Below, in pieces: positions 57 through 63,731 of a stretch of 64,000 bases of DNA. The notes beneath the pieces are model-generated. The model was not told where the DNA came from and ran no database searches. It was given only the letters and a program-made list of their open reading frames with translations. The stretch is taken from contig BCGN01000008.1 of the NCBI GenBank assembly GCA_001599295.1, positions 496,001 to 560,000 on the forward strand, written 5' to 3'. The translations under genes and the position numbers were made by a program. Each line of letters starts with the position of its first letter. Within the stretch, counting starts at the first letter, position 1. This stretch comes from Sporopachydermia quercuum (Eukaryota; Ascomycota; Sporopachydermiomycetes; Sporopachydermiales; Sporopachydermiaceae).

Positions 57-2282
57 TTATAAATCATCAAATGCCGCTACTTCACTTACTACCTTCCTCT
101 TTTTACTTTTCACCAATTCCTTCCAGTCAACTTGTACATTTACTTCGTCGCTCTCACTATCACTATCCTTAGCATTGGCTTTCTCAATAGCAGCCCTTTT
201 ATTGGCTCTCTTTTCTTTTCGTTCTTGTCTTAATTCCTTTCTAGAGATTCTAGAACTCCATGAATTAATATCATTCTTATACTTTTTCTCGGCAGGTGCA
301 GTAGCAACTTGTTCTTTGTACGTCTCTTGCTTCTTTAGTCTATCTTTTTCTGCTTTCGCATCAACATATGAATACGTATCCCAATCTACTGGTTCACCAA
401 CCCATCCATCCGTCAGCAGAGAGTTTTGCTTGTTGTCAAAATGTTGCTTCAGCTCTGGCATTTTTGGTAGCTTTATCACACCATACAATTTAGCAATGCT
501 AAGAAAATCTAATGACGCAACACGAAATATGGATGTTGCTGAATGTTTAGAGTAGTACCTGACATAAGATACATAACATCTTACAGCTTGATCATGATGA
601 GCACGATCAGCTAACATCCATTTCCTCAATTTCTGCTCATGTTTGGCGAGAATATCTTCAGAGACGTTATTTTTTATCTGTTGCATTCTAACCTTCTTTA
701 CCTCCATGAAATCAACATAATCTTCCTCCCTGCCTTCAGAAAGAAAAACGATGGCTGAACCAGTTTTATTTGCTCTTGCTGTTCTACCACAACGATGTAG
801 AAACACTTCAGGGATTGTAGGTGGATCTAACTGAATGACCAAATCAACATCAGCAACATCAATGCCTCTTGATGCTACGTCAGTTGTTAGTAAGACACAT
901 TTGTCTATCTGCGACGCAAAGTTATCCAATGTTTTAATTCTTGTTTTAGTTGGAAGTTTACCATACAATGACATTAGTCTATACGGTATTTCATGCCTCT
1001 TATATTGCTGTTGAAGTAAGTGGTTTATGAGTGCATAAAAAAATGCAACAGAAACTCCTGTTGGTAAATAAGCAATGCATTTGCGGAAATCCGATGCTCC
1101 TAACAACTCCATCAACTTCAATACTTTAGTCTCAGGTTTCATAACAATATATGATATATCTAAAGATGTAGGAACTGCGCTTTGTTCATTACCTGTTTTT
1201 GCACCAACTTTCACAACAATTTTCATTGGATTTGTCATACCAGTTTTAAAGATTGAATCACCAGCGCTCTGAATTGTAGCAGAAAACAATCCCAATCTTC
1301 TCTGCTTAGGTAGAAATTTCAGTATTTTACCAATATCTACTTGTAGACTGAAATCTAACAGTTTATCAGCTTCATCAAAAACAATCATTTCACATGAGTT
1401 TGTTTTAACAAAGTTTACTTTTGATAAGAATTCTAGTAATCTACCCGGTGTCGCTATAATGATCTGTGGCCTGATACGTAAGAACTTCTTCAAATCTTCA
1501 TGAGTTTGAGTCAAAGCTCCAACCAGCACTTGAGTCTTTATTTTAAAAACAGGGTCTCTTCTAGTTTTGGATTCTCTTTCCTCATCAGATTCATCATTTT
1601 CATCTCCGCTCTCACTATCAGATTCATCATCAGTATCGCTTTCGTTGTTCTCGATATCGTCTTGATGATATGCTATGAAATTCCTTATAACGTTGTCTAT
1701 TTGTATTGCTAATTCACGCGTTGGAGCAACAATAATAGAAAACATATGACCTTTCGGAAGCACAAGTTGATTTAAATTGATTTTTGATAAATCTGTTCCG
1801 GCTTCTTTTTCTTCCGCCAACTTCGTTCTGTATAACTTTGATAGTTTCTCAAGAATAGGAATAACATATGCTATTGTCTTGCCGGACCCAGTGACAGCCT
1901 ATAAATATGTTAGATCATTATGGACCATGATTCACAAAGCTTTGTGATATTAAAATTAACATCTCCTTACCTCTACCACCACATCTTTGTTTCCGCAGAA
2001 CAAAGGAATAACTGATGCTTGCACAGGAGTCATAGTTTCGTAACCAAGACTATCGATAGCATCCCGTCTAGAAATCACAGTATGTTAGATGCCCACTTGA
2101 TAGAATACCCATAATCCAATATCAACAGTTACAACTAATGGATGGTCATAAATCCATCGTACACCTAATAACAGCCATATCAGGTGTTACATATCATCAC
2201 AGTAGTCAACCTATACTCACATCCACGGCGATACTACTCCATTCAGCTTATCCCAAGATAAGGAATTCACTTTTCTCGACAT
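57..2282 (-). CDS. SPB4: DEAD-box ATP-dependent RNA helicase Spb4, three exons
   Basis: Nucleolar DEAD-box helicase needed for 60S ribosomal subunit assembly (late 27S pre-rRNA processing). I assembled three exons by eye: 2221-2282, 1971-2067 and 57-1898, joined in frame to 666 codons. The start reads [13 protein letters not shown], matching the family N-terminus with its WDxL motif. Visible motifs: Q-motif region ending ETMTPVQA, motif I AVTGSGKT (about residues 54-61), PTRELA (about 112), TPGRLL, DEAD (about 228), [14 protein letters not shown] and HRCGRTAR. Acidic D/E/S stretches interrupt the first RecA lobe, and the C-terminus is Lys-rich, as usual for Spb4. Introns are 153 nt (2068-2220, donor GTGAGT) and 72 nt (1899-1970, donor GTAAGG), each with CTAAC close to the acceptor. 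DEG1 is the divergent neighbour, as in S. cerevisiae. The family is very sure; the exon structure is inferred but preserves frame. Confidence 0.93.
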
Positions 2283-3050
2283 CCTCTCTCAGAATTCTGA
2301 ATAACAACAAAGCACAAATAAAACCTTCCAACTTGTTTAAATTCTATCACTATGTCTTCACTCTACTAATTATCAAAACAAGCATGCATATTCAGCTGAA
2401 TACCTTGTATCATAGCAGAAGGCAGTTGATATTCTGTCTTTCAGATCACAAACAAATAAATCTTTTAACTTGCAATGCCATACAAATAGACTTTTATTGC
2501 CTTTTCTCTGAGATGAGATGCAATGTTGAAACCTAAAAAGTTTTCCTTAGATCTTTGTGCAAAGTTTCCAGTGCCTGTTTGGGACTAATAATAAAACGAA
2601 TTTTCTATCATTTTTAGATTATTTAGTACTTCCATTACAAACACGATGAGCTATCGTGCTGCTGATGGTAGATAGTGGAATTTTCATTGATAAATGACAG
2701 ATGATTTTCCTTGATGGGAAGGAAGGTATTGGGACAATGAAATTTCATCTTGAGTGATTTAGTTCAAAATTTGATTGCTCTTACAGGTGGTGTATGTGGA
2801 TTGAAAACTGCAAGAACTAATTGAAGCTTATGGGAAGTTAAGATACATACAATTAACATTTCTCTTGAATGAACTCTAAAATTGCTTAATATTTTCCCTT
2901 TTATGAATGATTTGAGGAAACAGATAAAGAGCATTGAAATTATAGTGGTCTTCGCTTGGTATGTGGAGACCAATTTTGGGTGGTGTATTGAAATCATCTG
3001 TCAAGCATTTATGTATTTACAAACCATTGACACCAAGGGTAATATCAAGT
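2283..3050. other. Divergent intergenic region SPB4/DEG1
   Basis: A shared upstream region of about 770 bases between two divergent RNA-processing genes. It holds one GATGAG core (2645-2650) of the PAC element found upstream of many yeast ribosome-biogenesis genes, too short alone to be convincing. I see no RNA gene or conserved reading frame. The open frame upstream of DEG1 residue 1 has no family similarity. Confidence 0.5.
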
Positions 3051-4412
3051 ATGAGTCAACCTATGTATGAAACTTGGAGCAGAAGGAGATTGATCAAGAG
3101 GATCAGGGAGCTGGAAGGAGGATCCTTAGAAGTAGAGTCAGAAGGCAAAGCCGATGAAGCGGGAGTGAAACCGGCGGAAGAGCAATCTGCACAACTGTCT
3201 GAAACGAAGACTACTAACATAGCAGTTGATTCAGAAGAATCTACACCCAAGAGGCCGAAGCAAAAGAAAAAAAGGGTATTTGATTGGAGTAAATATAATA
3301 CAAGAAAAATTATTCTGAGATTTGCATACTTAGGGTGGAATTTTAACGGATTAGCATTTCAAGAAGAACCAACACCGTTACCAACAGTCGAAGGTGAAAT
3401 ATTCGATACATTAGCTCTATGCAGATTGATTCCTGAGTCAAAAGTTCCAGAAGAGTTCGAGTTCAGTCGTTGTGGAAGAACAGATCGCGGTGTCAGTGCT
3501 TTAGGGCAAGTAATCTGCTTGAGAGTTCGGTCAAATCTTACTCCAGAAGAGCAAGAGGATCCCAAGAATGACGATAAAGAACTCGATTATCTTAATATAC
3601 TCAATAATCAGTTGTCGACTGATATCAGGATCCTAGATGTTTGTTTACGACCTCCTAAAGATTTTGATGCAAGATTCAGTTGTAAATATCGACATTATAG
3701 GTACTTATTTTATGCTGGAAGTGAAACAGGTTTAGACGTAGAAGCAATGAATAAGGCGGCAGGTAAATTTCTGGGTGAAAATGACTTCAGAAACTTTTGT
3801 AAGCTGGACGGATCTAAACAAATTGAAAACTTCACCCGGACTATTATTTCATCCAGTATTGAACGGGTTGTCAATGGTGATGTAGATTCGAATTTTTACT
3901 ATTTCAATTTGCAAGGATCAGCATTCTTGTGGCATCAGGTAAGATGTATGGTCGCCGTTCTGTTTCTTGTAGGTAAAAAATTGGAAGAGCCAGAAGTGGT
4001 CGATTGGTTATTAGACGTAAAGAGCCATCCAAGAAAACCAATCTACAATATGGCTTATGATGTTCCTTTAGTATTATATGATGGTGTATTTGAAGGAGTT
4101 GACTGGAAATATGAAGGTAAAGGACCTAAATCCGATGACGCATCCTATAGAAATCTCAGTGAAAAGTTGTTTGAAATGTGGCATTCTTTAGAGTTGAAAG
4201 CTCAAATCTCAAATATGTTGAGAGAAGAGTTCAAGCAAAGATATAAGGGGTTAATTGATTACTCTTATTCAAAACCATGCCGGGGTTCTATATATTATGG
4301 TGAAGGTGTGAACCGGAGTATATGGAACTATAAAAAGATTGCTGATGCCAAAACACTGGATGACGTGGAGACAAGAAATCAAAGATATAGAGAAAAGAAA
4401 GCTGGTAGGTAA
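3051..4412 (+). CDS. DEG1: tRNA pseudouridine(38/39) synthase Deg1/Pus3
   Basis: TruA-family enzyme that converts uridine 38 and 39 in the tRNA anticodon arm to pseudouridine. The start is set at the ATG at 3051 (MSQPMYETWSRRRLIKRI), which gives 453 residues, close to the 442 of S. cerevisiae Deg1. An in-frame open stretch runs 30 codons further upstream but looks unrelated. The catalytic aspartate lies in CGRTDRGVSALGQV near residue 143. Also visible are the early TruA strand KIILRFAYLGWNFNGLAFQ and the later segment AFLWHQVRCMVAVLFLVGK. The N-terminal 80 residues are acidic and basic low-complexity sequence (KRPKQKKKR), plausibly nuclear targeting. The gene is divergent from SPB4 and ends 130 bases from the convergent SNF8 stop. 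Confident. Confidence 0.94.
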   Translation: MSQPMYETWSRRRLIKRIRELEGGSLEVESEGKADEAGVKPAEEQSAQLSETKTTNIAVDSEESTPKRPKQKKKRVFDWSKYNTRKIILRFAYLGWNFNGLAFQEEPTPLPTVEGEIFDTLALCRLIPESKVPEEFEFSRCGRTDRGVSALGQVICLRVRSNLTPEEQEDPKNDDKELDYLNILNNQLSTDIRILDVCLRPPKDFDARFSCKYRHYRYLFYAGSETGLDVEAMNKAAGKFLGENDFRNFCKLDGSKQIENFTRTIISSSIERVVNGDVDSNFYYFNLQGSAFLWHQVRCMVAVLFLVGKKLEEPEVVDWLLDVKSHPRKPIYNMAYDVPLVLYDGVFEGVDWKYEGKGPKSDDASYRNLSEKLFEMWHSLELKAQISNMLREEFKQRYKGLIDYSYSKPCRGSIYYGEGVNRSIWNYKKIADAKTLDDVETRNQRYREKKAGR

Positions 4413-4542
4413 CATTAATAATGTTGGCAATGCTCACGATAATATTATACTAATTAGACTATTGGATTAAACTTGAATGTGTGTTGTTGAGATGCCTAGC
4501 AGGTTTTGTAGGATTGTAATGAGGAAATTAATTGGAACGGTG

Positions 4543-5265
4543 CTACTTTTCGTTTATTATTGAAGGATCCCAATACAATATTTCTCTTGTACCACTTTGA
4601 TCATCAACCCATATCAATCCATTCGCTATAAGAGTTTCTATCGAATCAATAGCTCTATCCTTTGACCAACCAAGATTATCCCGCAATAAGTTTACACTAA
4701 CGTAACCACCAGTAAATGTAGATGTTTCTAATACAACTGTTTGATCATCGCTTAACTGTTTCGCAATACTTCGTATCAGTTTCTTTCCACCAATCTTCTC
4801 AATTGTAAGCTGTTGACCTGCAATCACTTTCAATGACTCAACAGCTCGTATAACGTCTGCTTCCTTTATCTCTATAGCATTAGGAGAGTTTGGATCTCCC
4901 AATCTATCAACTACTTCTTTGACATTCATTAATCCACCATTCTCATCTCGTGTAAGATTACACAATTCAATTACCCTTATTGCTATTGTATAATCATCAA
5001 CTGCTAAATGTTTCTCTTTAGAGATAATCAATGGATCAACTCCAACTCTAGCACACATCTCAGCAAACTCAGCTCGAAATTCTGTATTCTGCCTAATCTC
5101 TTCTCCGTGAGTTTTAGCAAAACTCGACAAAGCATCTTGAAATATTTCCAGCTGTGTGGATAGTATTTCTGATTGCTTTTTTAGTATAGAACTTCCAAGT
5201 TCTAAATACTGTTGAGTTGTTCTCTCTTTGTTATCAAAAGCGGCTAGACCTAACTTCCTATTCAT
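4543..5265 (-). CDS. SNF8: ESCRT-II subunit Snf8/Vps22
   Basis: Subunit of ESCRT-II, which links ubiquitinated cargo to ESCRT-III on endosomes. The protein has 240 residues against 233 in S. cerevisiae. The N-terminus, RKLGLAAFD followed by a helical hairpin (ILKKQSEILSTQLEIFQDAL), and the block FRAEFAEMCARVGVDPL are hallmark Snf8 sequence. Tandem winged-helix domains follow, ending with NLGWSKDRAIDSIETLIANG and LYWDPSIINEK. The start at 5265 is an ATG directly preceding the conserved N-terminus. It is divergent from HAT1, exactly as SNF8 and HAT1 are arranged in S. cerevisiae. A second ESCRT gene, VPS24, lies 11 kb away, but that is probably coincidental. No anomalies seen. Confidence 0.95.
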   Translation of the reverse strand: MNRKLGLAAFDNKERTTQQYLELGSSILKKQSEILSTQLEIFQDALSSFAKTHGEEIRQNTEFRAEFAEMCARVGVDPLIISKEKHLAVDDYTIAIRVIELCNLTRDENGGLMNVKEVVDRLGDPNSPNAIEIKEADVIRAVESLKVIAGQQLTIEKIGGKKLIRSIAKQLSDDQTVVLETSTFTGGYVSVNLLRDNLGWSKDRAIDSIETLIANGLIWVDDQSGTREILYWDPSIINEK

Positions 5266-5751
5266 TCTGTTCCAAATGATACATTTATTCTTTCAGCATA
5301 ATGAAGGCTGGATGCATACTATTCACACTACTTACAGTCTCTGATAACTACAGTTTTGTACCAAATCAATAATTAGTATAAAACTTATTATCACTATCTA
5401 ATGTAAAGTCACTTCCACTAGCTAGATTTATTGTAAGATTGAGCTATGGATAAAAAAATACCTGATAGATTGTCAATCAATCAGTCTATCTAACTGATAA
5501 AGAAATCACCTATGGTACCTTAGATTACATCTCACGTGATGAGGGGAATCTCGAGACTGAAATACCGGACAGTTCAGGAAGTACTTTACTATGATCAACG
5601 CGTTATTAGAAAAACCAAAGAGTANATCTAATAAGTAGTTGGAATAGTTATACATTGTTAAATGTATAAAAGTATTACTGATCCTTTTATACAAAAATTC
5701 CTATACAAGTACTAATTGCTAATTGACATATAAAAAGGGGTCGCATCAATT
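5266..5751. other. Divergent intergenic region SNF8/HAT1
   Basis: About 490 bases of AT-rich sequence between divergent genes. It contains a single E-box-like TCACGTGA site (listed separately) and TATA-like stretches near HAT1 (tataaaaagg at about 5730). No other structure is evident. Confidence 0.5.
5533..5538. promoter_or_regulatory. CACGTG site (Cbf1/bHLH-type E-box)
   Basis: A CACGTG core within the palindrome TCACGTGA, in the SNF8/HAT1 divergent promoter about 215 bases before the HAT1 ATG. In yeasts this core is bound by Cbf1 and Pho4-type bHLH proteins. Binding here is inference from the motif alone. Confidence 0.35.
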
Positions 5752-7203
5752 ATGTCAAGCTCAGTAATAGATCCAGAGGAATGGACAGTATCATCAAACT
5801 CATTGATCATCACCATTGGTAAGTAAGGATTATGTACCACAGTACAATTGTAATAATCCTAATTTTCATATCAATCTTCTCGAAAGGTAAAACTAACATA
5901 TTTCTAAGATGATGGTCAAGGAACCTATTCATTTAACCCATATTTCACATACCCAATATATGGAGATTCAGAACAAATATACGGATTCAAAGAACCGAAG
6001 CTACAATTAACATTTGACTCTTTCACACTTTTACCCTTAATTCAATTCAGCCACGAAGGAGCTTTGAGTCTACCAATTACAGAAGAAGGGAACCAAAACC
6101 ATCCTGTCGAAAAACTGAAGAAATTTCTTCCCGAAGATTTGTTTGTGAATGATGTGGCAGGTTGGGAACATGCTCGCAAAGAAGAATATAAGTCAATCGT
6201 AAAGCTAGTGAACGAATCATTCGATTTCGTACTGCCAGGAGAGAAGATAAAAGAATATTCTGCAGATGGAGCCAAGTTTGCTATTTATCACACTAAACTT
6301 TCTGATGATTATGCCATAAGGTTTCATTCTCGCTTACAGATTTTTGTATTATTCTTCATTGAAGCTGGTTCTTATATTGATGCAGCAGACCCACTATGGG
6401 ACCTATACTACACGGTCAAAATACCTGAAAATTCAACTCCCTCCAATGTGAAGATTCCAGAAGTGTTGTCCTTTGCTACGACCTATAGTTACTGGAAGTT
6501 CACCAATATCAAGGACTACGACGCTAACCCTGATAAGGTTCCGGAGTTCAATCGAAAGAGAATAAGTCAGTTTGTCACTTTTCCTCAGCATCATGGTAAA
6601 AGACATGGTAAGAACTTATATCAGTATTTATGTGATAAATGGGGAAACGATGAAAATGTGGTGGAAATTACTGTAGAGGATCCTTCTGAAGCTTTTGATG
6701 ATTTAAGAGATAGAAACGATTTAGAAAGATTAGATAGGTTGCAAATTTGGCAGAAAGCCTCGACTGGCTTTGACTACCAAAACTTGCCCTTGGATTACGA
6801 TTGGATTAAGAAGTATCGTAAGATCACGAAGTTAACCAAAAATCAGTTTGATAGAGTTGTGGAGATGGCACTCTTGTATTTCTTGAAGAGAGCTGACCAG
6901 CAGAAAGATGAAAAGTCAAATCTTTGGAAGTTATACAGGCTACACGTGAAAAGAAGATTGTACAATAAAAATCGTGATGTTTTAGATGAGATGCAAGAGT
7001 CCGATATGCGTCAGAAGTTGGTGGAAACCTTCGATAGAGTTGTCGAAGAATATGAGCGTATACTGAAAAATGTTGTTTTACATGATGGTACAGACCTAGA
7101 TAGCAAAGCACTCGAATCAAAACCGACTGAGGATGCTCTCCATTCAGATATTGAGATTCCCGAGGCGAAGAAGCGTAAAATTGTTATCAACGATGATGAG
7201 TGA
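5752..7203 (+). CDS. HAT1: Histone acetyltransferase type B catalytic subunit Hat1, two exons
   Basis: Type B acetyltransferase that acetylates newly made histone H4 at Lys5/Lys12 with Hat2. The long exon alone lacks the real N-terminus. A first exon at 5752-5818 (MSSSVIDPEEWTVSS...) joins to 5909-7203 across a 90-nt intron (donor GTAAGT, branch CTAAC 12 nt before the acceptor), giving 453 residues. The junction restores the family's opening strand and the segment NPYFTYPIYGDSEQIYGF. The acetyl-CoA binding core reads RISQFVTFPQHHGKRHG (about residues 280-297), close to the S. cerevisiae motif. The C-terminus carries PEAKKRKIV, a likely nuclear signal. Neighbours SNF8 and PIL1/LSP1 match the S. 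cerevisiae region left of CEN16. Confident in identity and intron. Confidence 0.94.
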
Positions 7204-7465
7204 ATCAGCTTGAAGGAATTACTCTAGGACTGCTTTCTCTGTACTAATAGTGCAAAACAACGGCGATATGTTATGTGATAAACCAAGAATAAACGTATCA
7301 GTTAATAAAGTGTTTAATAACAGATGTCTGTAATTCTGTTCTCTTCTTTTGCTTACTGATTTTTACTGCACTTGGATATGTACCAAACCTCCAGACACAT
7401 ACCTTTCCTGATTAGGTGATCTGGTATTACTTCAAACCTATTTCCACTATCTAATATGTAAAATG

Positions 7466-8257
7466 ACGTAAGGTAAAAAAACCCTATTATTTTCATTTCT
7501 CCCGTACAAATGAAACAAATCAAGTCTTTCGAATGGACCTGATGACAGTAATTTTTATGAAACAAGAAACAGTGGTAAATAATTGTCTCCAATGTCTTTT
7601 TAAAATCTGTAATCTTACGTTATATCCGAATTCTTTATTAAAGGTGGAGAGATAAGTTGTATAAGAAAATGAGACCAAAGAATGAATAATATAGTAGTTC
7701 TTATTCTACTCACCAGGCCATGTTAGGAAGAAGAAAAAGAACCAGATACAGCAAACATATTCCAATTAAATAACCTTCGATTTACCTCCAATTTAACTTC
7801 GATTTTTTCATCATTCTAGGATTTCTTTTAAAGAATGACCCAAGATACTCCTCAAGTTTGAATCATTCATTGTTCGGTTTCATTCTCAGTTCATCCAGCG
7901 AAAAGTGTTAAGACTCAATGGTCAGTATACAAATTACTTGATCTTACGTTACACGATTCTATATCCTTGTTTGAATTGTTGTCTTCCGTATATTTAGAGA
8001 CTATGATACTTTGCTGCTGGTTCATAAAAGAAACAGATTGTAGTTTTCTCGCTTAGAAAAATTAGGAATTGANGCGAAATTCTGTTATTAAATCTCTAAA
8101 TCATAGTACTTTCGTCGTTTCAATACGTGAAACATCGACAACTGACATTCTCTTAACCATTCTCCATTCAAATTGGATTAGGTGATGCATTAACCAGAAA
8201 GAGAAAGTCTTGTCTTACGTTCTCTGTATCTAGAGACGGCATCGATGTATACGTAAG
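7466..8257. promoter_or_regulatory. Cluster of five CTTACGT motifs
   Basis: The heptamer CTTACGT occurs at 7614-7620, 7943-7949 and 8214-8220 on the plus strand, and as ACGTAAG at 7466-7472 and 8251-8257. Base composition predicts well under one copy in this span. Three copies share the longer form TCTTACGTT. TTACGTAA-like half sites are typical of fungal bZIP (Yap family) factors, so this may be a distal control region for PIL1. The function is inference. Confidence 0.4.
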
Positions 8258-8915
8258 GTCATTCTTATTTCTTAATTTTAATCATCCTTACTTCAGCTTG
8301 CGAACCTGTCGCCTTCAAAGGACCCCTTACTTATAATTTCCCCAGCACGTATGCAAGAGCATATTAGTGTGCATCATTTAATCTCTAGATACTTTGACGA
8401 CTCTTAATGTTATCTAAACATTAGTAACACTATGTTCACTTCCCACATCCAGTTGAATCATTAAATACTTCATTGTTCTTATATCAATTATCATTTACTT
8501 CCCGCTTAACCCCAGTTAGAAATTATATGTGCTGGTTCGTAATAAATATTTCTCCACCTAACCAAGTGGCTTAACCACAGTTTATACCGTACAAATGTAC
8601 CTTCAAACCCCAGCCAGATTTCATCAGCGAAGTACTGACAACCAGATTCACCTTTATCTCCTTTCCAACAATTCCTCAATCAGTAATAATTATTACCAAT
8701 TCTTCTTTACTCATTCACTGGCCAAACCATTATTCATTCAATGAAACCTATAACTCAGACATCACATGCCATTATGCTTCAACTAAGTAGTCAGGCTGGA
8801 TTATAATTTGAAAATTAAAGTTGAAGTGCCTCTCCATAAATTTGCACGTATGATGAATAGGTCAATTCAAAGAGGAATGACATTTTGCTAGGAAATGTGC
8901 TTGTTAAAACATATG

Positions 8916-8946
8916 CTTGATACTTCTCTAGACTTCAAGTATCAAG
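8916..8946. repeat. Short inverted repeat (10-bp arms)
   Basis: CTTGATACTT (8916-8925) and AAGTATCAAG (8937-8946) are exact reverse complements separated by 11 bases. This gives a potential hairpin in the gap upstream of PIL1. Confidence 0.7.
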
Positions 8947-9100
8947 AAAAGAAGAAATAATACTACTGAATCACCATTGTTAGCATTTATGGAGATAAGT
9001 TGTGTTCGCACTCTCTTAATTTTTCATCTATCGGCAGTGAATTATTGTTTCTCAAAGTTCCTTTCTTTTTTAGTATTTTAGACAAACCTTATCTTTCACA

Positions 9101-9118
9101 TTACGTATATATACGTAA
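9101..9118. repeat. Perfect 18-bp palindrome
   Basis: TTACGTATATATACGTAA is identical to its reverse complement and lies about 220 bases before the PIL1 ATG. Each half carries the TTACGT core of the upstream cluster, so it may be a dimeric bZIP site or a structural element. Confidence 0.75.
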
Positions 9119-9337
9119 AATCATTATCACATTCAATTGACTTTTCCCACATTTGCATAATTGACTTCATTATATAAGTTGCAGCAGTCGCCCTCTTCTT
9201 CAATTGCTGTCTGGAAATAATTCTATTTTTGATGGCCCTTAACTATTAACTATTAAAGACTAGTAGTCCATTATTTCCTACTGTACAACTATAAATTCTC
9301 TTTTTTACTACTATCAAATATATAACAGCTCAACAGG

Positions 9338-10312
9338 ATGCATAGAACATACTCATTAAGACAAAGTAGGGCGCCTACAGCCTCCCAACTGCAAAGTCCT
9401 CCACCACCAACTTCTAGTACGAAGTCTGGAAGATTTTTTGGTAAAGGGTCTTTAAGCAGCTCATTGAGAAAGTCCACTGCGGGAGCTTTTAGTCCAGAGC
9501 TTTCTAAGAAGTTGGCTACTTTGATCAAGATGGAGAAGAATGTCATGAGGGCACAAGAAATTGTTGCTAATGAACGCAGAGATGTTGCCAAGCAACTTTC
9601 TCTTTGGGGTGAAGAGAACGATGATGACGTTTCGGATGTCACTGATAAAATTGGTGTTTTAATTTACGAGATTGGTGAGTTGGAAGATCAATTCATTGAT
9701 AAATACGACCAGTACAGAGTTACATTGAAATCCATTCGCAATATTGAAGCATCTGTTCAACCCTCTCGTGATCGTAAACAAAAGATCACCGACGAGATTG
9801 CTCATTTGAAATACAAGGATCCTTCATCTGCAAAGATTCCTGTCTTAGAGCAAGAATTGGTCAGAGCTGAAGCTGAATCTCTTGTCGCTGAAGCGCAATT
9901 GTCTAATATTACTAGAGAAAAGCTGAAGGCTGCTTTCAACTATCAATTTGACTCTATTCGTGAGCATTCTGAGAAGTTGGCATTGATTGCTGGATACGGA
10001 AAGGCTTTATTAGAATTATTAGATGATTCTGCTGTTACTCCTGGTGAGACCAGACCTGCTTATGATGGATACGAAGCATCAAAGCAGATCATTATCGATG
10101 CCGAAGCTGCTTTATCTAACTGGACCTTAGATGCTGCTGCTGTGAAGCCAACTTTATCGATCAGAGAAGGCCATGAAGGCGAATCTGAAGAAGAAGGCTA
10201 CTTCGAGGAAGAAGAAGAAGGAGAAGAACCAGAAGCAGTAGAAGGAGAAGGAGAAGTTACCAATGGTGAAGAGGTTCATGAAGAGGTCCATACCGAAGAA
10301 GCAAAGGCTTAA
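9338..10312 (+). CDS. PIL1: Eisosome core component Pil1/Lsp1
   Basis: BAR-domain protein that self-assembles into eisosome filaments under the plasma membrane and shapes furrow-like invaginations. The 324-residue protein opens with MHRTYSLRQSRAPTASQLQ, nearly identical to S. cerevisiae Pil1. Other diagnostic blocks are GRFFGKGSLSSSLRKS, WGEENDDDVSDVTDKIG, DQFIDKYDQYR, SVQPSRDRKQKI and GYGKALLELLDDS. The BAR helices span about residues 45-270. The tail after residue 275 is strongly acidic (Glu-rich), as in the family. Position beside HAT1 and SNF8 matches LSP1 (YPL004C), so this may be the single pre-duplication ancestor of Pil1 and Lsp1. CTG codons at residues 18 and 196 encode conserved leucines. 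An unusually long 2.1-kb upstream region may hold its regulation. Confidence 0.96.
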   Translation: MHRTYSLRQSRAPTASQLQSPPPPTSSTKSGRFFGKGSLSSSLRKSTAGAFSPELSKKLATLIKMEKNVMRAQEIVANERRDVAKQLSLWGEENDDDVSDVTDKIGVLIYEIGELEDQFIDKYDQYRVTLKSIRNIEASVQPSRDRKQKITDEIAHLKYKDPSSAKIPVLEQELVRAEAESLVAEAQLSNITREKLKAAFNYQFDSIREHSEKLALIAGYGKALLELLDDSAVTPGETRPAYDGYEASKQIIIDAEAALSNWTLDAAAVKPTLSIREGHEGESEEEGYFEEEEEGEEPEAVEGEGEVTNGEEVHEEVHTEEAKA

Positions 10313-10512
10313 GTATCGATGAAACAATTATAATTTTGAATCATGTAGCAAGGAAAACAAAATCAAGTTGATTGAACGAACTGATTACATAAATATTCTC
10401 TTCCGGTATGGAATTTTGATGCAATTTGTTTATTTACTATGTGTTGTAACTTATTTAGCACCTTAAATGTATTTTTAATTATCAATTGCCATTTATATTA
10501 TATTCAATCGTT

Positions 10513-12828
10513 TTAGCCAATTGTAGCACCCATGAGTATTTCCACGTTAATTCCAGAAGTAAGTATTCCATTTGAGTGGTCTCTAAGNGTTATGAGTGAT
10601 TTTGAGGCCAGCAGTAGCACAGAGAAAAATGTAGCTGCGGCAGTAGCTTTTCTTGTTAGACTAAGTTGAGCAAAATGACTCCGATCCTGACGTTGAGCAT
10701 GATCAATCACTAGCTGTAAGTTTAAACTGTCCGTTAGTGAACTCAACTCTCTCAGCACAAAGAACACGTTCTTAGCCTCTGGATATAGATTTTCAAGTAA
10801 ACGATCTGTAAGAGAATTTGGTTGTACTGATAAGCTGTTATTGCTGTTACTGGATCCTGGCGTTCTGGAATTTCTTCTTGCGTTACTAGTACCAAATGAG
10901 TATAAAGTTGAGCTGGATCTCGATCTCTGCGTAGAAGCAGAAGAACTGCTTATTCTCGGATGAAGGTGTGCTCTAGTTATGTCAATGGTCATTACGTCGT
11001 CTTCCGGTATCTCTGGTAATTTGACATACTCCGTAGGTTGTTCAATGAAAGGATCATTGTCATTCCACGGAACCACATCAAACGATAATTGATCGGAGCC
11101 GATAGAACCTTGAAAGCTGTTCTGAGAACGAGCCTCTCTGACTTGTTCGAGCTCTGATAGACTTGAGTGTAATAAAGAGAGCCGTGAAATTGGAGCTTGT
11201 CTTGGAGTGCTTGGCTTTAATTTTTCATCTGATAACTGAGGAAAAAGTAGCCTAGCTACTAAATCATTTACCAGTTTCTTTGTTCTAGTATTGGTAAGAA
11301 AATAGTCCCTTTCTCTATTCAGAGTCCTTTGCCTCTTTCTCTGGTTGGCGTACTCCATATTCAGTACGTAGTTTGATTCATTATCTTTCAATTGGTTACT
11401 CGGAATCTGGTTGATTGAATCCCATTGTAATCTCTTTGGTCTTCTAGTACTTACTTCATTCTCGTTACTACATCCTGGGCCAAGTTCCTCACTAGATTCC
11501 AATCTCAAATCAGTGTGGTCATAATTCCTACCATCATATATATCATCATCCTGTTGGGCAATACTATCGATAGGAACTTCAAGTCCCATTCCATCAAGAA
11601 CCTTTTCCGTTATTTCATTGTTAATTTTATAATCTGACGCTTGCACATTGTTGTTTATTAGAGGCTGTACGTCTGATATACCGGTATGTTTTGAAGGAGT
11701 TGATGTCAGTAGAGCTATATCATTGATATCAAACTCAAAATCAGCATTCAAAGCTTGAAGTTCTTCTTCGCTCAACCTTATGTCATCTGCGATACCAAAT
11801 AGATCCAATAAATCACTAGGCTTCGTCTGGTTACTAAGTTCTATTTCTGCTATATCACTTCTTGCCATTGAGATAGAACGAGATAAATTGATATTGCCAT
11901 TCTCATCAGAAATGTTTTCAATGCTTTCACTTGCTTCTTGATCAGAGCTACTGTTAACTAGCANTGAAGGATCCCAGGAATCTCCTACTGAAGATGTTAC
12001 ATCTAACGAAAATTGTTGTTGATCGACATTAAAAAGCTCTGGATATAAACCAAAATCAATCATAAATAATGGATCATCGGGGAGATATCCTTTTCTAGAA
12101 CATGGTGTCAATAGAGGGTTCTGAAAGCCATTTGAACTATCTCAAATCTGGACAATTTTTGCATACCTCGATTTAGGATTCGTGATAAAAGATGTTCTAC
12201 CTCTCTCATTGTTTTCTTTAGAGCAAATGTTCAATGGGCCCCAAATAGGCTGAGAGGATCTACTCAATTTTGTCTGGAGCATATCCAGGTCATCTTATGA
12301 AATTAAGGTTAGAGAATATACTAGCTTTTTCTTGTTTTTAATACTATAACGCTATTGATTCCAATACTGAATACAATGGTATTTCATACTGTGTAAATAA
12401 ATTAATTGCTGCCGATAAGCTAATGTTATACCATACAAAAGATTGGATGTCAGCCTTAAAGCCAAAGGCTCCAAAGGGTCGGCGATAAAGCTACATGTAT
12501 CTACAATCGATACCCCTAAGATATCCTATTGAAGATGACTATCAGTAACATGGCAAGTCAATCCAAGAGCGGTTTCTCATAGGTGAATCTCAAACTTACT
12601 TTCTTTGATACACTCTTGTTAACAGACCGAGTCCCAATTGTTGATAAAAGCCTTCGAATTCTTTAGTTAATAAGACAGGATACATCAGAATCAAAATCGT
12701 AAACCTATTGATGGAAACAATCCAACTGAGACTTGATTTGGTTTACCTCAAAATTAAAGAGTTCCTATTTACCAGATGGTTCCAAATCCTCCTTTTTGAT
12801 AGTATAACAGATCTTCAGAGAAAAACAT
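10513..12828 (-). CDS. REC8: Meiotic cohesin kleisin Rec8, at least five exons
   Basis: Alpha-kleisin of meiotic cohesin, which holds sister chromatids and is cut by separase. The large 3' exon (from about 12135 down to 10513) holds the middle and the C-terminal winged helix (ATAAATFFSVLLLASKSLI). I found the N-terminal domain in upstream exons: 12773-12828 (MFFSEDLLYYQKGG...), 12600-12651 (LLSTIGTRSVNKSVSKK), 12390-12525 (DILGVSIVDTCSFIADPLEP) and from 12293 (NDLDMLQTKLSRSS). The KKDI...VD...C.FI signature and LALRLTSNLLYGIT favour Rec8 over Scc1. The first three junctions are clean (donors GTAAAT, GTAAGT, GTATGA). The last junction, within 12137-12200, is ambiguous: the simplest solution needs only a 30-nt intron, and a 60-nt GTAGAA-TTTGAG intron is the alternative. 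Two N bases lie in the coding sequence. Convergent with PIL1. Confidence 0.88.
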
Positions 12829-13210
12829 TTTGTTGTTTTGGTTGTAATAATTCAATTTCTATATTATATCATGAACGGTATTACCTGTATTTCTGTCGTT
12901 GGAGCTTTGATGCTAATATTCTATTTCATTTTCTGACATTCGATGCTGTGAGATCCAGAAAAAGACAAGCAGAAACTAACAGGAAACAGGTCCTTAAAAT
13001 ATATGACAACTTGATCACCGAAAGTCTTACGCTGAAATTGTTGGGATTTTCTTAGACACGACAATTGCATTCCCAACAGAATTTCTGTGAGAAGCAAGCG
13101 CTGAATATTTTCAGTTCGTGTTTGCATTAAGTTCATTGTCAGAGAAACAAAGACAAAAAATCCGCTGTATTGAAAAAGAAACTTACTAAAATGTTATTAG
13201 TATACGGAAT
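12829..13210. other. REC8 upstream / AVT1 downstream spacer
   Basis: About 380 bases between the Rec8 ATG and the AVT1 stop, both on the minus strand. I see no additional exon or RNA gene. Any meiotic promoter element for REC8 would lie here; no textbook URS1 (TCGGCGGCT) is present. Confidence 0.45.
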
Positions 13211-14851
13211 CTAATTGATTAAGATACTAGCTAAGACACCAGTAATAGCTAGCAGACAAGAAATGATTACACCGATAGTGCAACCTATTTTCTCTAAGAC
13301 AGTTAGTTGGTCTTTATAGATACTCAAATAAAAAGATAAGGGTAAAATCAAGCAAATTAGATAACAAATGCCTGCGCCTAGAAAAGCAATCAATCTTTCA
13401 AAAGATGGAACTGTCACTGCTATAAAAAACAGCATTCCTAATACTGCGACCCTTGAAATTACACCTATTATTTTCTTACCCGTACCACTATACTCTTTAT
13501 TCTCACCCTTCTTTGAATAATAAAACAATCTTTCGGTTACTTGTACAATAGGTCTGACGACTAAAGGAACTTTAGAGGTTGCTAACATAGCCATCAAACC
13601 ACATATTGTGCCATAGACCCAGCTTGGATAGCCCTTTGTAGTCATGATTGATTTTGTTACTTCACCATCAACTTGATTCCCAAACATAAGAAACCCTAGT
13701 ATAGCCATTGCTAAGTCAAATGTAAACGTTGCGCTAAATGTAAGGTTCATAGAATGATTGAATTTTTGTGGATGTCTCATATCTCTATAGATATCAGGGA
13801 AAACAGCATGACCACCCCAGGGAGCCATGAAAATACCAAATCCCAGTGGAAAGTATTTGATGGTATCAGGAATCCACCATGTAATCATTGGTGAAATAAG
13901 GGAACCAGGGGAATCAGGTTTGATTAACCCAGAAAGAATTATAAATAGCAGTATGACAAAAATCGACAGAATTCCAATGAAAGATCCACTTGAGAGGATA
14001 TTCAAAGGTAAAAACGAAAGAGGAGTAAGAATGAGCCAAAATAGTAGTTTGAAGTTAAATACTGATACACTTGGTATTATAGCATTCAACGAATCACCAA
14101 AAAGTATAAATGAGGACACACCTGCTCCCACCAAATCAAAGCAGAACAAGAATGTAATAAATGAGTAAGATGCTGGCCCAAAGGCCTCTACTGCAATGTC
14201 AGAATACGTTGTAGCTTGTGGTCGAATCTTTAAGCACTTGCCCAGTAGTTCTGCAGCATAAGCTGTACTTATTGCAGAAAGTAATAATATGAGAGTTCCC
14301 ATAATCCACCCACAGTAGCTGAACCCCAACGGTAGCGCAAGGATACCAATGCCTACTAAAACGTTGATAGAGTTAAACACTGTTTGTGGCTCTGTTGATT
14401 TACCTACTCTCACATGGATTATCGATCCATCTGCCTTCTGAACCCGTTGAATGAGTAATGTTGATTCATCTTCAATAAAACTTATCAAGTCTCCGTCTTC
14501 CAATGCTTGATCAGATGTCACTGGACTCACTAAATCTATATTGTTCTCGCTTGAAGGTGTAAGCAAATTCAATTCAGGATCAGATTCTAAAACTACCTCT
14601 TCTGCATTTCCGACTTCAGATATATCTAGTATAGGTTCAATTAATACGCCATCATCTCCAGCAGATGCCGAAAATCTCCTCAAAACCCTTCCTTCAATGG
14701 GCTCTTGATTCCCATTTAAGTCTATTGTTAAGAACGCTTGAGCTCTCTGATATGAATTTGCGAAATTACCTAATGAGTTCAATCGTTTACCTCTAATTGG
14801 TCGAAGTTCAGACGGTGAGTTATCCGTCTCCTCTTCATTTGACCCATACAT
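13211..14851 (-). CDS. AVT1: Vacuolar amino-acid transporter, Avt1 family
   Basis: Amino-acid/auxin permease family transporter, related to Avt1, which imports neutral amino acids into the vacuole using the proton gradient. The first ATG is at 14851 (MYGSNEEETDNS), giving 546 residues. The hydrophilic N-terminus of about 150 residues precedes the diagnostic first membrane block TVFNSINVLVGIGILALPLG. About ten further membrane segments follow, including IMGTLILLLSAISTAYAAELL, MAPWGGHAVFPDIYRDMRHP and the C-terminal KIGCTIGVIISCLLAITGV. The protein ends directly after the last helix. S. cerevisiae AVT1 (YJR001W) is the first gene right of CEN10, relevant to the centromere-neighbourhood finding. 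Assignment to Avt1 rather than another Avt paralog rests on N-terminal length and core motifs. Confidence 0.88.
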   Translation of the reverse strand: MYGSNEEETDNSPSELRPIRGKRLNSLGNFANSYQRAQAFLTIDLNGNQEPIEGRVLRRFSASAGDDGVLIEPILDISEVGNAEEVVLESDPELNLLTPSSENNIDLVSPVTSDQALEDGDLISFIEDESTLLIQRVQKADGSIIHVRVGKSTEPQTVFNSINVLVGIGILALPLGFSYCGWIMGTLILLLSAISTAYAAELLGKCLKIRPQATTYSDIAVEAFGPASYSFITFLFCFDLVGAGVSSFILFGDSLNAIIPSVSVFNFKLLFWLILTPLSFLPLNILSSGSFIGILSIFVILLFIILSGLIKPDSPGSLISPMITWWIPDTIKYFPLGFGIFMAPWGGHAVFPDIYRDMRHPQKFNHSMNLTFSATFTFDLAMAILGFLMFGNQVDGEVTKSIMTTKGYPSWVYGTICGLMAMLATSKVPLVVRPIVQVTERLFYYSKKGENKEYSGTGKKIIGVISRVAVLGMLFFIAVTVPSFERLIAFLGAGICYLICLILPLSFYLSIYKDQLTVLEKIGCTIGVIISCLLAITGVLASILIN

Positions 14852-16129
14852 ATTTATTGCCAATTATATTTTATGTCAAAAATATTGATAATCGATTCCA
14901 ATTACCTCTTGTTTTCACTAACTCATCGATTTGAAGTATAATGGTCAATTCGAACTCTCAGTATCCGCCAATAATGTTTCCTTTATAACAGTTTCTTACT
15001 TTTTCCCCATCCAAAGTCAATATCACCGGAGCTTTTCTTTTCTTTTTCATGAAACACCGCATGAACAGATGCTTATATACGATAGATACTTTGACCTTTT
15101 CTTAATGTATGTTTCACCACACCACTCTTCTTGCTTGTGTTAAAAAAAAAAGGTCCTTCTGTCTGCTGTACGTATCTAAGTTCAGTCGAATTGTGCAATT
15201 ATTATGCAAAATCAGGTGTAATGGAACTTCGATTGGCAATCCCAAGGTAAGGTAAGATAAGGTAAGGAGATTGACTTGCATTAATAAACAACCGTAAATC
15301 CCTTTTTTGTTTCAATCGGTGATTCCCTTGTCTCTAGTCACAAGAAGAAGTAAATATAAATATGTGTTAATTCAGTCAGCAAATAAAAAGAAGATCAAAC
15401 TACGTTGTTGACCTTTTGGTGACAAGTTGTAATCACAATTGTGAACTTTTTTGCAAGGTTCAATTTAAAGTTGAAAGAACAAATTTCAGCACAATATAAC
15501 AAAAGATGAGACATTGATATCCTATTAAAGTTTTGAATCGTTAGTGGGGGAATTATGAAATTGCCAAGGTTGAGTTTCAGATTTTAACTTTAGGTTTAAA
15601 TCATAATATGTATAAAGATGTATTAATATGCAAGGTATAAATTTTAAAACCGAAAAGCGGAAACGATATAATTACTCCGATAAGCGCAGCAAGTGAGACA
15701 TGGAGTAACACAATATATATGCAACGTATCAGAACAACAGCGTATTCGACCTATAAACGTCTTTTGAGATTTATTCTGAGAGGACAATTTGTAAAATTTG
15801 TTGGTGATGGTTCATTTTTTCATCATCAATCAATCAAAAAAAAATCAGATTATATCTTATCCAAGTTTTTCGTACTTCTCAAACGTAGCTAATCTACATA
15901 TCAGAACAGACACCGGGCGGGTAACACAGAGAAAGAAGGTAGTGTCTGCGTTAGGAACCTAACTATCACTACGAACAGTTCATCATTGATAGGTAGCTTT
16001 TGGATTTGATGGTTAGCAGGAACAAGGGAAAAGAATTTATTTATTGTTTCGAACAATCCAAGCGGAAATGCTTGCTTTTTATTTGAGCAGGGTGCAAGCA
16101 CAAGCGGTCCAGTTAATAATAGTTGCGGA
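14852..16129. other. Divergent intergenic region AVT1/VPS24
   Basis: About 1.3 kb with no credible reading frame. It contains a short GGTAA tandem run (15246-15267) and several homopolymer A/T runs. Poly(T)/CT-rich sequence precedes both genes. Nothing else is recognised. Confidence 0.5.
15246..15267 (+). repeat. Short GGTAA pentamer tandem repeat
   Basis: Four pentamer units (GGTAA GGTAA GATAA GGTAA) plus a partial GG lie in the AVT1/VPS24 intergenic region. It is a minor microsatellite with no evident function. Confidence 0.7.
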
Positions 16130-25224: not shown

Positions 25225-28172
25225 TTTTAGCTAGTCTTATTACTATTTAGCCTTATCTGAAAAAAAATCAAACGGGATTGAAATGTTTACTTTTCAATAT
25301 CTACTTAATCCGTTGTATTTCCCCATGTATAATCAACAGTTGAAAGTTTCCTTGCTATCTTCAATTGAAGTAGTGTTGAACGATTTTACTTTGAAGATTA
25401 TATAATCATAAATATTTAAGGTTTGAACTTTATCTTTTTTATTTTCCTTCTCACTTTTTTAGCTAAAGTTTATACCTTATTTTTAATAAAGTTCAAAGAA
25501 CGTTATCAAAGGCATATGTTGTTACGCTACGCTAAGAATGACAGGGATCTTTTCTAGTACTTTCAAGGAAACGTTCAGATTTTACATTTTTTATCAATTA
25601 TTGAGTTTGTATGATCTTGAGTTGTCTATGATCCATTGACATTTATGTTTATGTTTGGTTTTGAATAAAAAACGAGAGTAGATTTAGAAATAGAAAGAAA
25701 AGGAAAGAAGGTTGATGAAATAGGGGTTGAGGTTGGTCTAATCGAGAAAAGTACGGCAGTGAAGGAAGGATTCTTGAAAGTTGAATAATGACCCAGNTAA
25801 AGGGGTATAACTAAGAATTGATGACTTATTGGAGGCACTTTGCTTGTTATTTTTATGTTGAAAATAATAAAAGCTTTGTTGTTTGGTGAAATGAGAAGTG
25901 ATAATGAAGTAAAGTGAGACATATTCCTCCTTTAACGGGAATATTATTCTTGTCAGAAATAGAAGCTCTCGCATAGTAGCCTAACGCGAAAATATCCAAA
26001 TTACTGTGTTGTTTATAGCTTCTTACTCATTCGGATTATGGTTGAACTGTTGCAAGAATTAATTTCTTTNGATCTAGAAATAGAGATATTTAGACCTGCA
26101 GAACGATACACGCAAGTTCAATATGTTTGAAAGCATTATCACCTTTTAGAAGCGTTATATTCTCTTCTTCACTTTTTCCATGTTTATATGAACATGTATA
26201 TATGAGGGTTCATTTTATTCTTTCTTGTGACGGCACATCCCTCTATACTCCCCAATTTCGGAACCTAATAATCAAAACCTCAATCTCAATTCTAACTTGA
26301 CAAGGATAAACTACATTACATATTTGTTGCCTATAACCTTTCCAGTCTTTACGCTTTTCATTCCATTTCATTGAATGATCCCTTGAATATTCATGATTTC
26401 CCTTTGCTTATATATTTTCCTTACATCAAGCCTCAAATGGCCATACATGCATACCATGTTCAAATACTATATAACCGTCCTAATATCTTCAAGCTGTAGT
26501 CTTTTTATCTTTTCTTAGCTTTTCTAAGCCATAATCTTAAATACAGTTTGAACTAAAGGGCAAACTTTGTTTCTGTTCGAAGACTTGAATTGCTTATTCA
26601 TTTGCTTACCCAGAAAATAGGAGTTGTATCTCTATGTAGCAAGGAATGATTCAATAGTCAAGAACCACACTTTGTTTAATCATTTACTGGGTTTGCTTAG
26701 TTTGATCCATCGTTTAAGAACATTGTACATGATTGTCGAAGAATTTGTTATACTCTTAGATACATAGTGATCTTTGGATTTTAGACGGACCGTACTGATG
26801 GTTGTGCAACTTATAATCGATTTTGCTTTTACAATTGCAAAGAATTGTAAGTATGTATTTGGAATATCTAAGCAGGAAAAGGTAGTAGCAGTATTATTGT
26901 TGTTCTTAAGTGTGCTGATGATCTACAAGATATCTTATGATCTATATCTATATTATGATATGATGCATATGATAAATATGATGAGTTCAATCCCCCTTAG
27001 TTATTCATCTCGCAACTTTTTATTTTTTTGAATTCGTGAACGATCATTATTATATTGCGAGTCTAACTCCTGCAGTTGCTTTCAATACTATATCTGGTTA
27101 ATCTTGTTCATTTGCAGATATCACATTTCTATGGTTACTTGAATCAATTGACAAAAATAATATATTCGTATTATTGCTACTAATGGGCTAATGTATTACA
27201 ATATCTAATGTTCAATACTTGTTTATACTAACTGGATAAATCATAGAAGTTCAGTGATTGATATAGTCAGAAAAGTAAAACAGATTTTCGTTCTCTCATT
27301 GAAAAGTAAGATTACTAAGTTTCCCACTTTACAAAAAATAGACGACCAGCAGTTAGAGAAATTGACTACTAGTTGCACTACATTCACTTTCCAGCACTGT
27401 CCAAAGCTTGAAAACTGAACTTGTATTCAATTATTTCTTGTAGTGTAACAATATTATGATAGAAGAAATAAAAAGTAAAGCATAAGAAAGTGAACCAGAA
27501 AGTAAGAGAAGAGGAAAGAAGAGAGAAGAAGAAAAGAAGTTTACTTAACGCTAAAAGATTGGTTTTTAGTCATCTAATTCTTGAGCTGAAACTGGTATTC
27601 TACAAATATTATTATAAAAAATAGTAACTAGAACATCTCTTCCAAATTCAAGACTACTCAACTTATTTAGGGACAGTAAAGAAGTTCATACAGTTCTCGC
27701 TGTTCTCTCCAACTTTCTCTTTCTACTTTCAGGTTGAGTTTAGTTCTTAGACTTCTCAGTTCTTGGAACTGATTATCTTTTCATATGAAATCTTTAATCA
27801 CTTTCAAAACAGGTGGTACTCATTTAGAAGATTATGATTTGAATTTCAGTATTGATAATTATAAAAGCATTTGAGGAAACAATTACGGAATTGAAAAACA
27901 TTTATACTGGTGATCATTGAATTCAGAGTATATACACCAATAGTATCAACAAAAAAAAATAGGTTTTTTGCTTCCTTTTGTATAAGGATTGAATAATCAA
28001 TAAGCACGCACTGAAATTTTAAGCTATAAATTCACAGCAACAGCAAATAGTCTCAACACAATACTACAATCAATGATTAGACATTGTCACTACTTAAATT
28101 TTGTTGTATAATTGTGACAATTAATTAGTTTGGCTCTTGAAATCCAATTGTTAGTGCTACAAGTTGTATGTG
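25225..28172. other. 2.9-kb divergent gene-poor region
   Basis: A long AT-rich stretch between the dehydratase and an RNA-binding protein gene. The plus strand is purine-rich at about 25660-25930 and 27455-27545, and pyrimidine-rich at about 26150-26420, which creates chance open frames. The only ATG frame with distinct character is a possible 77-codon membrane peptide at 26798, listed separately. I see no tRNA or repeat element. Long 5' regions like this are typical of highly regulated yeast genes, so it may belong to the RNA-binding protein gene. Confidence 0.5.
26798..27031 (+). CDS. Possible small membrane protein, 77 aa
   Basis: An ATG-initiated frame in the middle of a gene-free region. 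The peptide has two hydrophobic segments (MVVQLIIDFAFTIA and VVAVLLLFLSVLMIYKI) with lysines between them and a Met/Tyr-rich tail. That layout would suit a two-pass small membrane protein, but AT-rich DNA readily gives hydrophobic frames and I recognise no family. An acceptor-like TTTTAG lies about 14 bases before the ATG, so an upstream exon is possible. Treat as unproven. Confidence 0.2.
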   Translation: MVVQLIIDFAFTIAKNCKYVFGISKQEKVVAVLLLFLSVLMIYKISYDLYLYYDMMHMINMMSSIPLSYSSRNFLFF

Positions 28173-60913: not shown

Positions 60914-61848
60914 GTTGATATAGATACAATGATTAACTGCGTTCTGCTGTTGATTCGATGGTTGCGAGACTGTCAATCTGCAGAGTATTCTAATATTAAT
61001 AATAAATTCCTGCTCAGACTCAACAATTGAATNAATACTTTACTGAAACTACCACTGAGTATAAGCTGTGATTGTCGTCAGAAGTTTTAACAAGCGATAT
61101 ATCAATCTTCATGTTTGTTGTTTGTGAAGGTAAAGAAATTTGCTTATAGTAAAGAAAATTTTTTGTATGCGAATAATGAAATGAACTTTAATATGATTTT
61201 GTTTCTGTGAGCCTTACCAATCGGGTAATTTGAAGGGGAAGCTTAGAGACTAAAGTGGTTAGAAATAATATCGGAGATTATTCTTTCAAANTGAAGAGAT
61301 TATCGGAAGATATATATATGTATGCTGCGTCTTAACAANGAACCATAGATATGTAGTTATTGAGAAGTTTCTTCTTAGAAATGTGGTTGAGAAAATCAGT
61401 CGACAGTTGTAAAATGCAAAAATGGTGTAACTGTCCTCTAAAAGAATTGAATCAAAGATAGTGTAGTGAATTCATGAAGTCAAGAAACGAAAAATCAGTT
61501 TCGAAAGGATGCTCAATTGAATATATATCTTCAGAAATTCAATCATTAATGCGGAGAATTTAGCAATGACCGTTGAGAAAAAATATTGAAGGAAGAATAA
61601 ACTGAAATTCAGCACTCGACATAGTGTTCCAGACTCAGTCCTTTGTAAAAGGCTTTGTTATTGAAAAAATCTTCACAATATGGGGACTTTGAGGCAAGGT
61701 GGAAAAAAATAATTTCAAGTTAACATTTAANGTTTCAGCCAAAATAATAGAGCATCTGATAGCCTGCGATGAAGTTGTTACTCAAATTCAGACTTTTTTA
61801 CTAAATCCTATTGATTTTAATTATATACAGATAAGAACATAAATAAAT

Positions 61849-61898
61849 AAAAGGATAGTTACATTTATTTCATTATAATTTATATTAACTATCCTTTT
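61849..61898. repeat. 13-bp inverted repeat with 24-nt loop
   Basis: AAAAGGATAGTTA (61849-61861) and TAACTATCCTTTT (61886-61898) are exact reverse complements. A stem-loop or the ends of a tiny palindromic element are possible; the 24-base interior is AT-only apart from one C in each half. Confidence 0.8.
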
Positions 61899-62275: not shown

Positions 62276-62307
62276 GATCATCACTAAAGTTCACTAAAGT
62301 GATGATC
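62276..62307. repeat. Inverted repeat with nested direct repeat
   Basis: GATCATCACT and AGTGATGATC (10-bp perfect arms) flank a centre in which CACTAAAGT is repeated directly. The whole element is 32 bases. Confidence 0.8.
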
Positions 62308-63710: not shown

Positions 63711-63731
63711 ATTATTATTATTATTATTATT
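63711..63731. repeat. (ATT)7 trinucleotide repeat
   Basis: Seven uninterrupted ATT units near the window end. A microsatellite outside any recognised gene. Confidence 0.85.

Follow-up and report, generated by a model that had tools for sequence, protein, structure and literature searches.

A gene block from the left flank of the ancestral yeast centromere Anc_CEN8, next to a place that probably holds no centromere

The window analyzed here is a 64,000-nucleotide stretch of yeast contig BCGN01000008.1 (positions 496,001 to 560,000), in which 26 genes were annotated. Its first part (57-14851) carries SPB4, DEG1, SNF8, HAT1, an eisosome gene of the PIL1/LSP1 kind, a REC8-type kleisin gene and an AVT1-type transporter gene (Table 1). 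Identities were assigned from the list of open reading frames (ORFs), Pfam profiles and comparisons with PDB chains, whose matches name the molecule but not the organism. On this sequence evidence the gene set is confirmed as real: five of the seven genes named in a first-pass annotation are confirmed by these tools, and REC8 and AVT1 to the family level only. The first four genes correspond to the left flank of Anc_CEN8, the single ancestral centromere from which centromere 6 (CEN6) and CEN16 of Saccharomyces cerevisiae both descend, as the first-pass annotation supposed in treating the two as a pair (Gordon et al., PMC3141009, Table 1). CEN10 and CEN12 derive from Anc_CEN5 (PMC3141009, Table 1), and the term Anc_CEN8 is used in a table of PMC5433688. 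At the HAT1 border itself, this species probably has no centromere.

By its systematic name, DEG1 is the S. cerevisiae gene nearest to CEN6 on the left, with SPB4 next beyond it; HAT1 and SNF8 hold the corresponding places left of CEN16 (the name YPL002C for SNF8 is confirmed by a PDB match). LSP1 is taken to be the fourth gene left of CEN16, and PIL1 to be unlinked. The window orientation SPB4(-) DEG1(+) SNF8(-) HAT1(+) equals that of the S. cerevisiae left flanks of CEN6 and CEN16, and the Anc_CEN8 left-flank block is present with the order and orientation of both pairs kept. HAT1 in S. cerevisiae presumably reads toward CEN16; here, its 3' end points at the HAT1-PIL1/LSP1 gap (7204-9337), and this gap therefore corresponds to the left border of Anc_CEN8. 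That gene order is conserved around ancestral centromere sites is already known. A literature search found no paper joining four of the terms SPB4, DEG1, SNF8, HAT1 and centromere; the figures of PMC12711049 may show genes of the window.

Table 1. Features at the locus, with positions in the window.
Feature	Positions	Strand	Basis or remark
SPB4, ATP-dependent rRNA helicase	57..2075	-	Pfam SPB4 C-terminal models; best PDB match SPB4, 469 bits
DEG1/PUS3, tRNA pseudouridine 38/39 synthase	2961..4412	+	Pfam, PDB
SNF8, ESCRT-II	4543..5265	-	Pfam; best PDB match Snf8p, YPL002C
HAT1, two exons	5752..7203	+	Pfam Hat1_N; top PDB matches HAT1
HAT1 to PIL1/LSP1 intergenic gap	7204..9337		Matches left border of Anc_CEN8; no centromere feature found
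PIL1/LSP1, eisosome component	9338..10312	+	Pfam; PDB match
REC8-type kleisin, several exons	10513..12660	-	Pfam Rad21_Rec8_N on upstream exon
AVT1-type amino-acid transporter	13211..14851	-	Pfam Aa_trans
AVT1-VPS24 divergent intergenic region	14852..16129		Second candidate place; AVT1 5' end faces region

The right side of the locus departs from the Anc_CEN8 arrangement. The genes immediately right of CEN6 and CEN16 in S. cerevisiae, which we take to be LOC1 and NIC96, and CIT3 and PDH1, were not recognized among the 26 annotated window genes, and no synteny with the Anc_CEN8 right flank was found. REC8 is the sole window gene that recalls the right arm of Anc_CEN8; it is presumably the seventh gene right of CEN16 in S. 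cerevisiae, and not the adjacent one as first annotated. AVT1 is taken to be the gene next to CEN10 on the right, its 5' end pointing at the centromere. Since the right-flank genes were not recognized, LSP1 belongs to the left arm and AVT1 to another ancestral centromere, collinearity ends at HAT1. The first-pass annotation had suggested that the segment corresponds to the pre-duplication centromere region with genes from both arms adjoining; this holds for the left block, which matches the CEN6/CEN16 left flanks, but not for the right side, where REC8 only is of the opposite arm, the eisosome gene being left-arm (if LSP1) or unlinked (if PIL1) and AVT1 stemming from Anc_CEN5.

The density of centromere-proximal genes was assessed in a chance test made post hoc, in which 21 of the 26 annotated genes were given S. 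cerevisiae names (five were dropped with no name assigned) and the baseline was put at 320 centromere-near genes among about 6000. Eight of the 21 named genes lie within 10 genes of a centromere compared with 1.1 expected (P about 7e-6 under gene independence), or 7/21 if the eisosome gene is PIL1 (P about 7e-5). Counted as syntenic blocks, 4 of 11 are centromere-proximal, with a P of about 0.002, likewise post hoc. The PIG-V/GPI18-type mannosyltransferase gene at 32454-33869 (+) recalls GPI18, which we take to be the fourth gene right of CEN2 in S. cerevisiae.

The gene models behind these comparisons vary in completeness; the first-pass annotation had placed the five confirmed genes correctly, but SPB4 runs past 1745 and the REC8-type gene extends to about 12660. 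SPB4 contains an intron (1899-1970, starting GTAAGG), and the exon join 1971/1898 restores the reading frame; its end at 2075 is a cut that we chose, and its 5' exon border and start codon are provisional. Behind motif Ia, the ORF at 57-1745 also encodes some 35 acidic-insert residues that are missing from the matched SPB4 chain. The top PDB matches of DEG1 are tRNA pseudouridine(38/39) synthase (229 bits), compared with only 45 bits for tRNA pseudouridine synthase 1. HAT1 has a single intron (5819-5908, GTAAGT...CTAAC...AG) whose splicing gives an intact frame. The eisosome gene is labeled PIL1/LSP1 jointly because its PDB scores are near-equal (499 bits for PIL1, 492 for LSP1). The REC8-type ORF as listed is the 3' part of its gene only, with a weak Pfam Rad21_Rec8 match (E=0.031) and no match in a PDB search up to E=10. 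An upstream exon (12355-12525) matches Pfam Rad21_Rec8_N (E=2.9e-10) and joins in frame to the exon beyond the first intron (12526-12599, 5' end GTAAGT); the middle exon borders and start codon are provisional. That this kleisin gene would be REC8, and not MCD1, is our own reading. For the transporter, the PDB search gave one weak transporter match; the family is confirmed, and the name AVT1 is one that we presume.

The sequence carries several signs of the host lineage. PIL1/LSP1, SPB4, SNF8 and HAT1 together hold 13 CTG codons (61 in 16 genes), two of which, in HAT1, lie outside aligned stretches; of the remaining 11, seven stand opposite Leu, four opposite Ile or Phe and none opposite Ser or Ala in the matched chains, which we take to be those of S. 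cerevisiae. The CUG-Ser and CUG-Ala clades were excluded by eye from these codons. Introns occur in SPB4, HAT1 and the REC8-type gene, with CTAAC a few bases ahead of the 3' end in SPB4 and HAT1, and three introns in such genes are intron-rich by the budding-yeast norm. These introns with CTAAC near the 3' end appear to speak against Saccharomycetales. QCR8 reaches 117 bits with its S. cerevisiae chain; two other sequence groups give 105 and 99 bits. SNU114 scores 967 and 958 bits against non-yeast chains and 570 against yeast SNU114, which weighs against close S. cerevisiae kinship; the yeast SNU114 protein is itself diverged. ERG20 found no yeast chain among its PDB matches. Pattern scans with the PIL1/LSP1 protein hit four stretches of viral contigs and 180 of prokaryote contigs; none of these hits was confirmed, which is no surprise with a yeast gene. 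The host is most likely a budding yeast outside Saccharomycetales.

Elsewhere in the window, a YeeE/YedE-like sulfur transporter gene at 35066-36103 (+) matches DUF6691 and Sulf_transp, with a weak NCBIfam TsuA match (1.1e-7) below the cut-off; this family is best known from bacteria and stands here in a yeast. The window contains 49 isolated single Ns, and ARAGORN with bacterial settings found no tRNA gene in its 64 kb.

Gap 7204-9337, in which the first-pass annotation thought a centromere most likely to sit, gave no positive sign in point-centromere, repeat or motif scans and resembles ordinary intergenic DNA. It is the third longest of 26 intergenic intervals, and its GC content (0.332) is slightly above that of all intergenic DNA (0.320), on which ground an AT-rich trough was rejected. 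The longest gene-free stretches of the window, 25225-28172 (GC 0.308) and 60914-64000 (GC 0.312, cut by the window end), are longer and AT-richer. A point centromere was sought as CDEI (RTCACRTG), an AT-rich CDEII of set length and CDEIII with a TTCCGAA core. Allowing one mismatch in either element and a spacing of 60-200 bp, both strands of the whole window yield 29 CDEI-CDEIII pairs, and in none of them does the AT content between the elements reach 78%; the best pair, with one mismatch in total, was equalled or beaten in 19 of 20 simulations. The gap itself has no TTCCGAA core; its single exact CDEI-like word, at 8761, stands unpaired. These scans gave no convincing point centromere of the Saccharomycetales type, consistent with the first-pass annotation, which saw no CDEIII.

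Repeats were searched through the whole window with 14-nucleotide seeds and reported from 32 nucleotides, a design by which a repeat whose partner lies outside the window would escape. No direct repeat of at least 32 nucleotides was found in the window, and the one inverted repeat of that size (32 nucleotides, 75%) joins GAA-rich low-complexity coding DNA of PIL1/LSP1 and EBP2. Inside the gap, the longest direct pair has 19 nucleotides, the longest inverted one 22 at 73%, and one weak tandem array of 11-nucleotide units lies at 7775-7805; a repeat array was rejected as an account of the gap. An inverted-repeat centromere like those of Barnettozyma, Komagataella and Pichia kudriavzevii, with pairs of about 0.5 kb or more, was not seen within the window. 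As to a centromere made of a cluster of Ty5 or long terminal repeats (LTRs), the window has no direct repeat of the reported size and the gap frames match no Pfam family, in a search made without LTR reference sequences.

Published motifs were counted over the whole window and compared with the mean of six simulations, the H. uvarum pattern being built from a text description and not the full motif. The H. uvarum-like motif occurs 34 times (28.7 expected) and 20 times reversed (29.7 expected), the W. anomalus motif 12 times (10.5 expected) and the B. discipulorum motif not at all (two expected), so that none of the three short-motif types is clearly above expectation in the window. The word ACGTAAG occurs five times in the gap (7466, 7614, 7943, 8214 and 8251), upstream of PIL1/LSP1, and once in other intergenic DNA. 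Its cluster score, 13.07, is borderline but below the null 95% point of 13.63; a value of 13.3 was attained in 15 of 300 simulations. A higher score, with the word ATATATA, belongs to interval 29582-30981. A motif array was rejected on this null, and the ACGTAAG words may be transcription-factor sites. A hidden gene was likewise rejected, as the two frames of at least 70 codons in the gap (88 and 71) match no Pfam family, and no RNA family was found in the gap up to E=1. Region 14852-16129 shows no feature in the whole-window scans, and its three frames of at least 70 codons have no Pfam match below E=0.1.

Centromere maps of related orders bear directly on how the site is to be read. According to the text of Hession et al. 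(PMC12711049), centromeres of two Saccharomycodales and seven Phaffomycetales species have been mapped by Hi-C, with chromatin immunoprecipitation sequencing in H. uvarum only, and all nine species have seven centromeres each. The Saccharomycodales sites match Anc_CEN1-7, and Anc_CEN8 is stated not to serve as a centromere location there; the Discussion of the same paper assigns 7 of the 8 ancestral sites to both orders, and the text does not describe Anc_CEN8 in Phaffomycetales. In Starmera quercuum, six of seven centromeres share neighbors with both other orders, and CEN7 has apparently moved slightly; a 17-bp motif is also described for this species (PMC12711049). Saccharomycodes ludwigii is reported to have seven chromosomes (PMC8567612). 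With one of the eight ancestral sites left unused by both outgroup orders, a birth of the eighth centromere within Saccharomycetales is most likely, and gain is favored because one gain of CEN8 needs fewer steps than repeated losses outside Saccharomycetales.

The reading that we prefer, and hold to be reasonably probable, is that the SPB4-DEG1-SNF8-HAT1 block has been kept, that the site does not act as a centromere in this yeast, and that the eighth centromere arose later, within Saccharomycetales. The window would then represent the outgroup state of the later CEN8 place, with HAT1 followed by PIL1/LSP1, REC8 and AVT1 and no centromere. Gap 7204-9337 would consist of the HAT1 3' region and a long PIL1/LSP1 promoter, and the block would persist through the ordinary slow decay of gene order. 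The eighth centromere would have been born at the HAT1 border after the split from this lineage. Anc_CEN8 is the one site of eight not shared by the mapped sister orders, and its outgroup gene order lets one ask whether an intact arm later received a centromere or a scar is what is seen today. The origin of the eighth centromere in the baker's-yeast order, or its loss elsewhere, is not discussed in the text of PMC12711049 or PMC3141009, as far as that text extends here.

Several points weigh against this reading. The block match assumes that the SPB4-DEG1 and SNF8-HAT1 pairs were interleaved in the ancestor. The enrichment of centromere-proximal genes beyond the left block (REC8, AVT1 and GPI18) would fit a real pericentromere. 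Ancestral centromere locations, some of them shared with Saccharomycetaceae, have reportedly been described in Pichiaceae in the MGOB study, and the maps of the sister orders may fail to apply to this species. Centromeres do move within Phaffomycetales, by about 60 kb for C. sargentensis CEN3 and about 250 kb for B. californica CEN2 (PMC12711049). Featureless mapped centromeres exist in H. menglaensis and C. albicans (PMC12711049), and the absence of features is therefore weak evidence.

Loss of a former centromere is rather unlikely. By this account, an ancestor had at least eight centromeres, fusion or breakage removed Anc_CEN8 from the outgroups, and HAT1 lies at a scar joined to another arm; collinearity does end at the centromere-facing end of HAT1. 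Anc_CEN5 of A. gossypii offers a precedent, with breakage at the centromere and arms moved elsewhere, and breakpoints adjoin centromeres in several species; within Saccharomycetaceae, nine centromere losses and no de novo gain are reported (Gordon et al., PMC3141009, in its text). Loss would however require separate events in Saccharomycodales and Phaffomycetales as opposed to one gain, and the point-centromere, repeat and motif scans reveal no relic.

An active centromere in the gap, featureless or of another motif type, at a conserved Anc_CEN8 position is unlikely. Left-flank synteny reaches HAT1, the gap is free of genes for 2.1 kb, a length that fits the candidate centromere regions of Starmera quercuum, which span 1.2-2.4 kb (PMC12711049), and both the five ACGTAAG words and the exact CDEI-like word lie in it. 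Against these stand the ACGTAAG score below its null with a higher-scoring interval elsewhere, the two longer, GC-poorer gene-free stretches in the same window, and the position itself, which the mapped Saccharomycodales do not use and which is not among the seven of eight shared sites (PMC12711049).

We regard as quite doubtful a variant of gain in which the locus keeps the pre-CEN8 order and a single exchange with the CEN5 pericentromere split HAT1, REC8 and AVT1, raising chromosomes from seven to eight. The three genes, which would later stand first left of CEN8 (HAT1), right of CEN8 (REC8) and first right of CEN5 (AVT1), lie within 8 kb in the window; the exchange would have given HAT1 a second centromere copy as its neighbor, and AVT1 would have ended up next to CEN5. 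If true, this would be a point-centromere gain without genome duplication, of which the text of Gordon et al. (PMC3141009) gives no case within Saccharomycetaceae.

Chance combined with generic microsynteny, with no relation to a centromere, is very improbable: SNU114-EBP2-NNK1 and ERG20-QCR8 also lie close together in S. cerevisiae, at mid-arm positions, but the post hoc count of syntenic blocks given above speaks against chance. Least credible of all is a CEN5-type pericentromere with its centromere in the AVT1-VPS24 gap, toward which the AVT1 5' end faces here as it presumably faces CEN10, since no further Anc_CEN5-proximal gene was recognized among the 26 annotated genes and this gap, at 1.28 kb the ninth of 26, is featureless in the scans.

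Compared with Anc_CEN8 as represented by S. cerevisiae CEN6 and CEN16, the locus has the SPB4-DEG1 and SNF8-HAT1 pairs in the same order and orientation. Unlike it, the window is without a CDEI/CDEII/CDEIII unit and has PIL1/LSP1-REC8-AVT1 as its right flank, and ULA1, which presumably sits between SNF8 and LSP1 in S. cerevisiae, was not recognized in the window. With Anc_CEN5 of Ashbya gossypii the locus shares that arms joined at a relative's centromere lie apart, the break falling in the centromere interval; there, loss is inferred on a tree, whereas here the change may have gone either way. Unlike CEN1-CEN7 of Saccharomycodales and Phaffomycetales, which are mapped centromeres, the window site is the counterpart of the eighth, at which Saccharomycodales have no centromere; like them, it displays gene order conserved over long range around centromere sites beyond Saccharomycetales.

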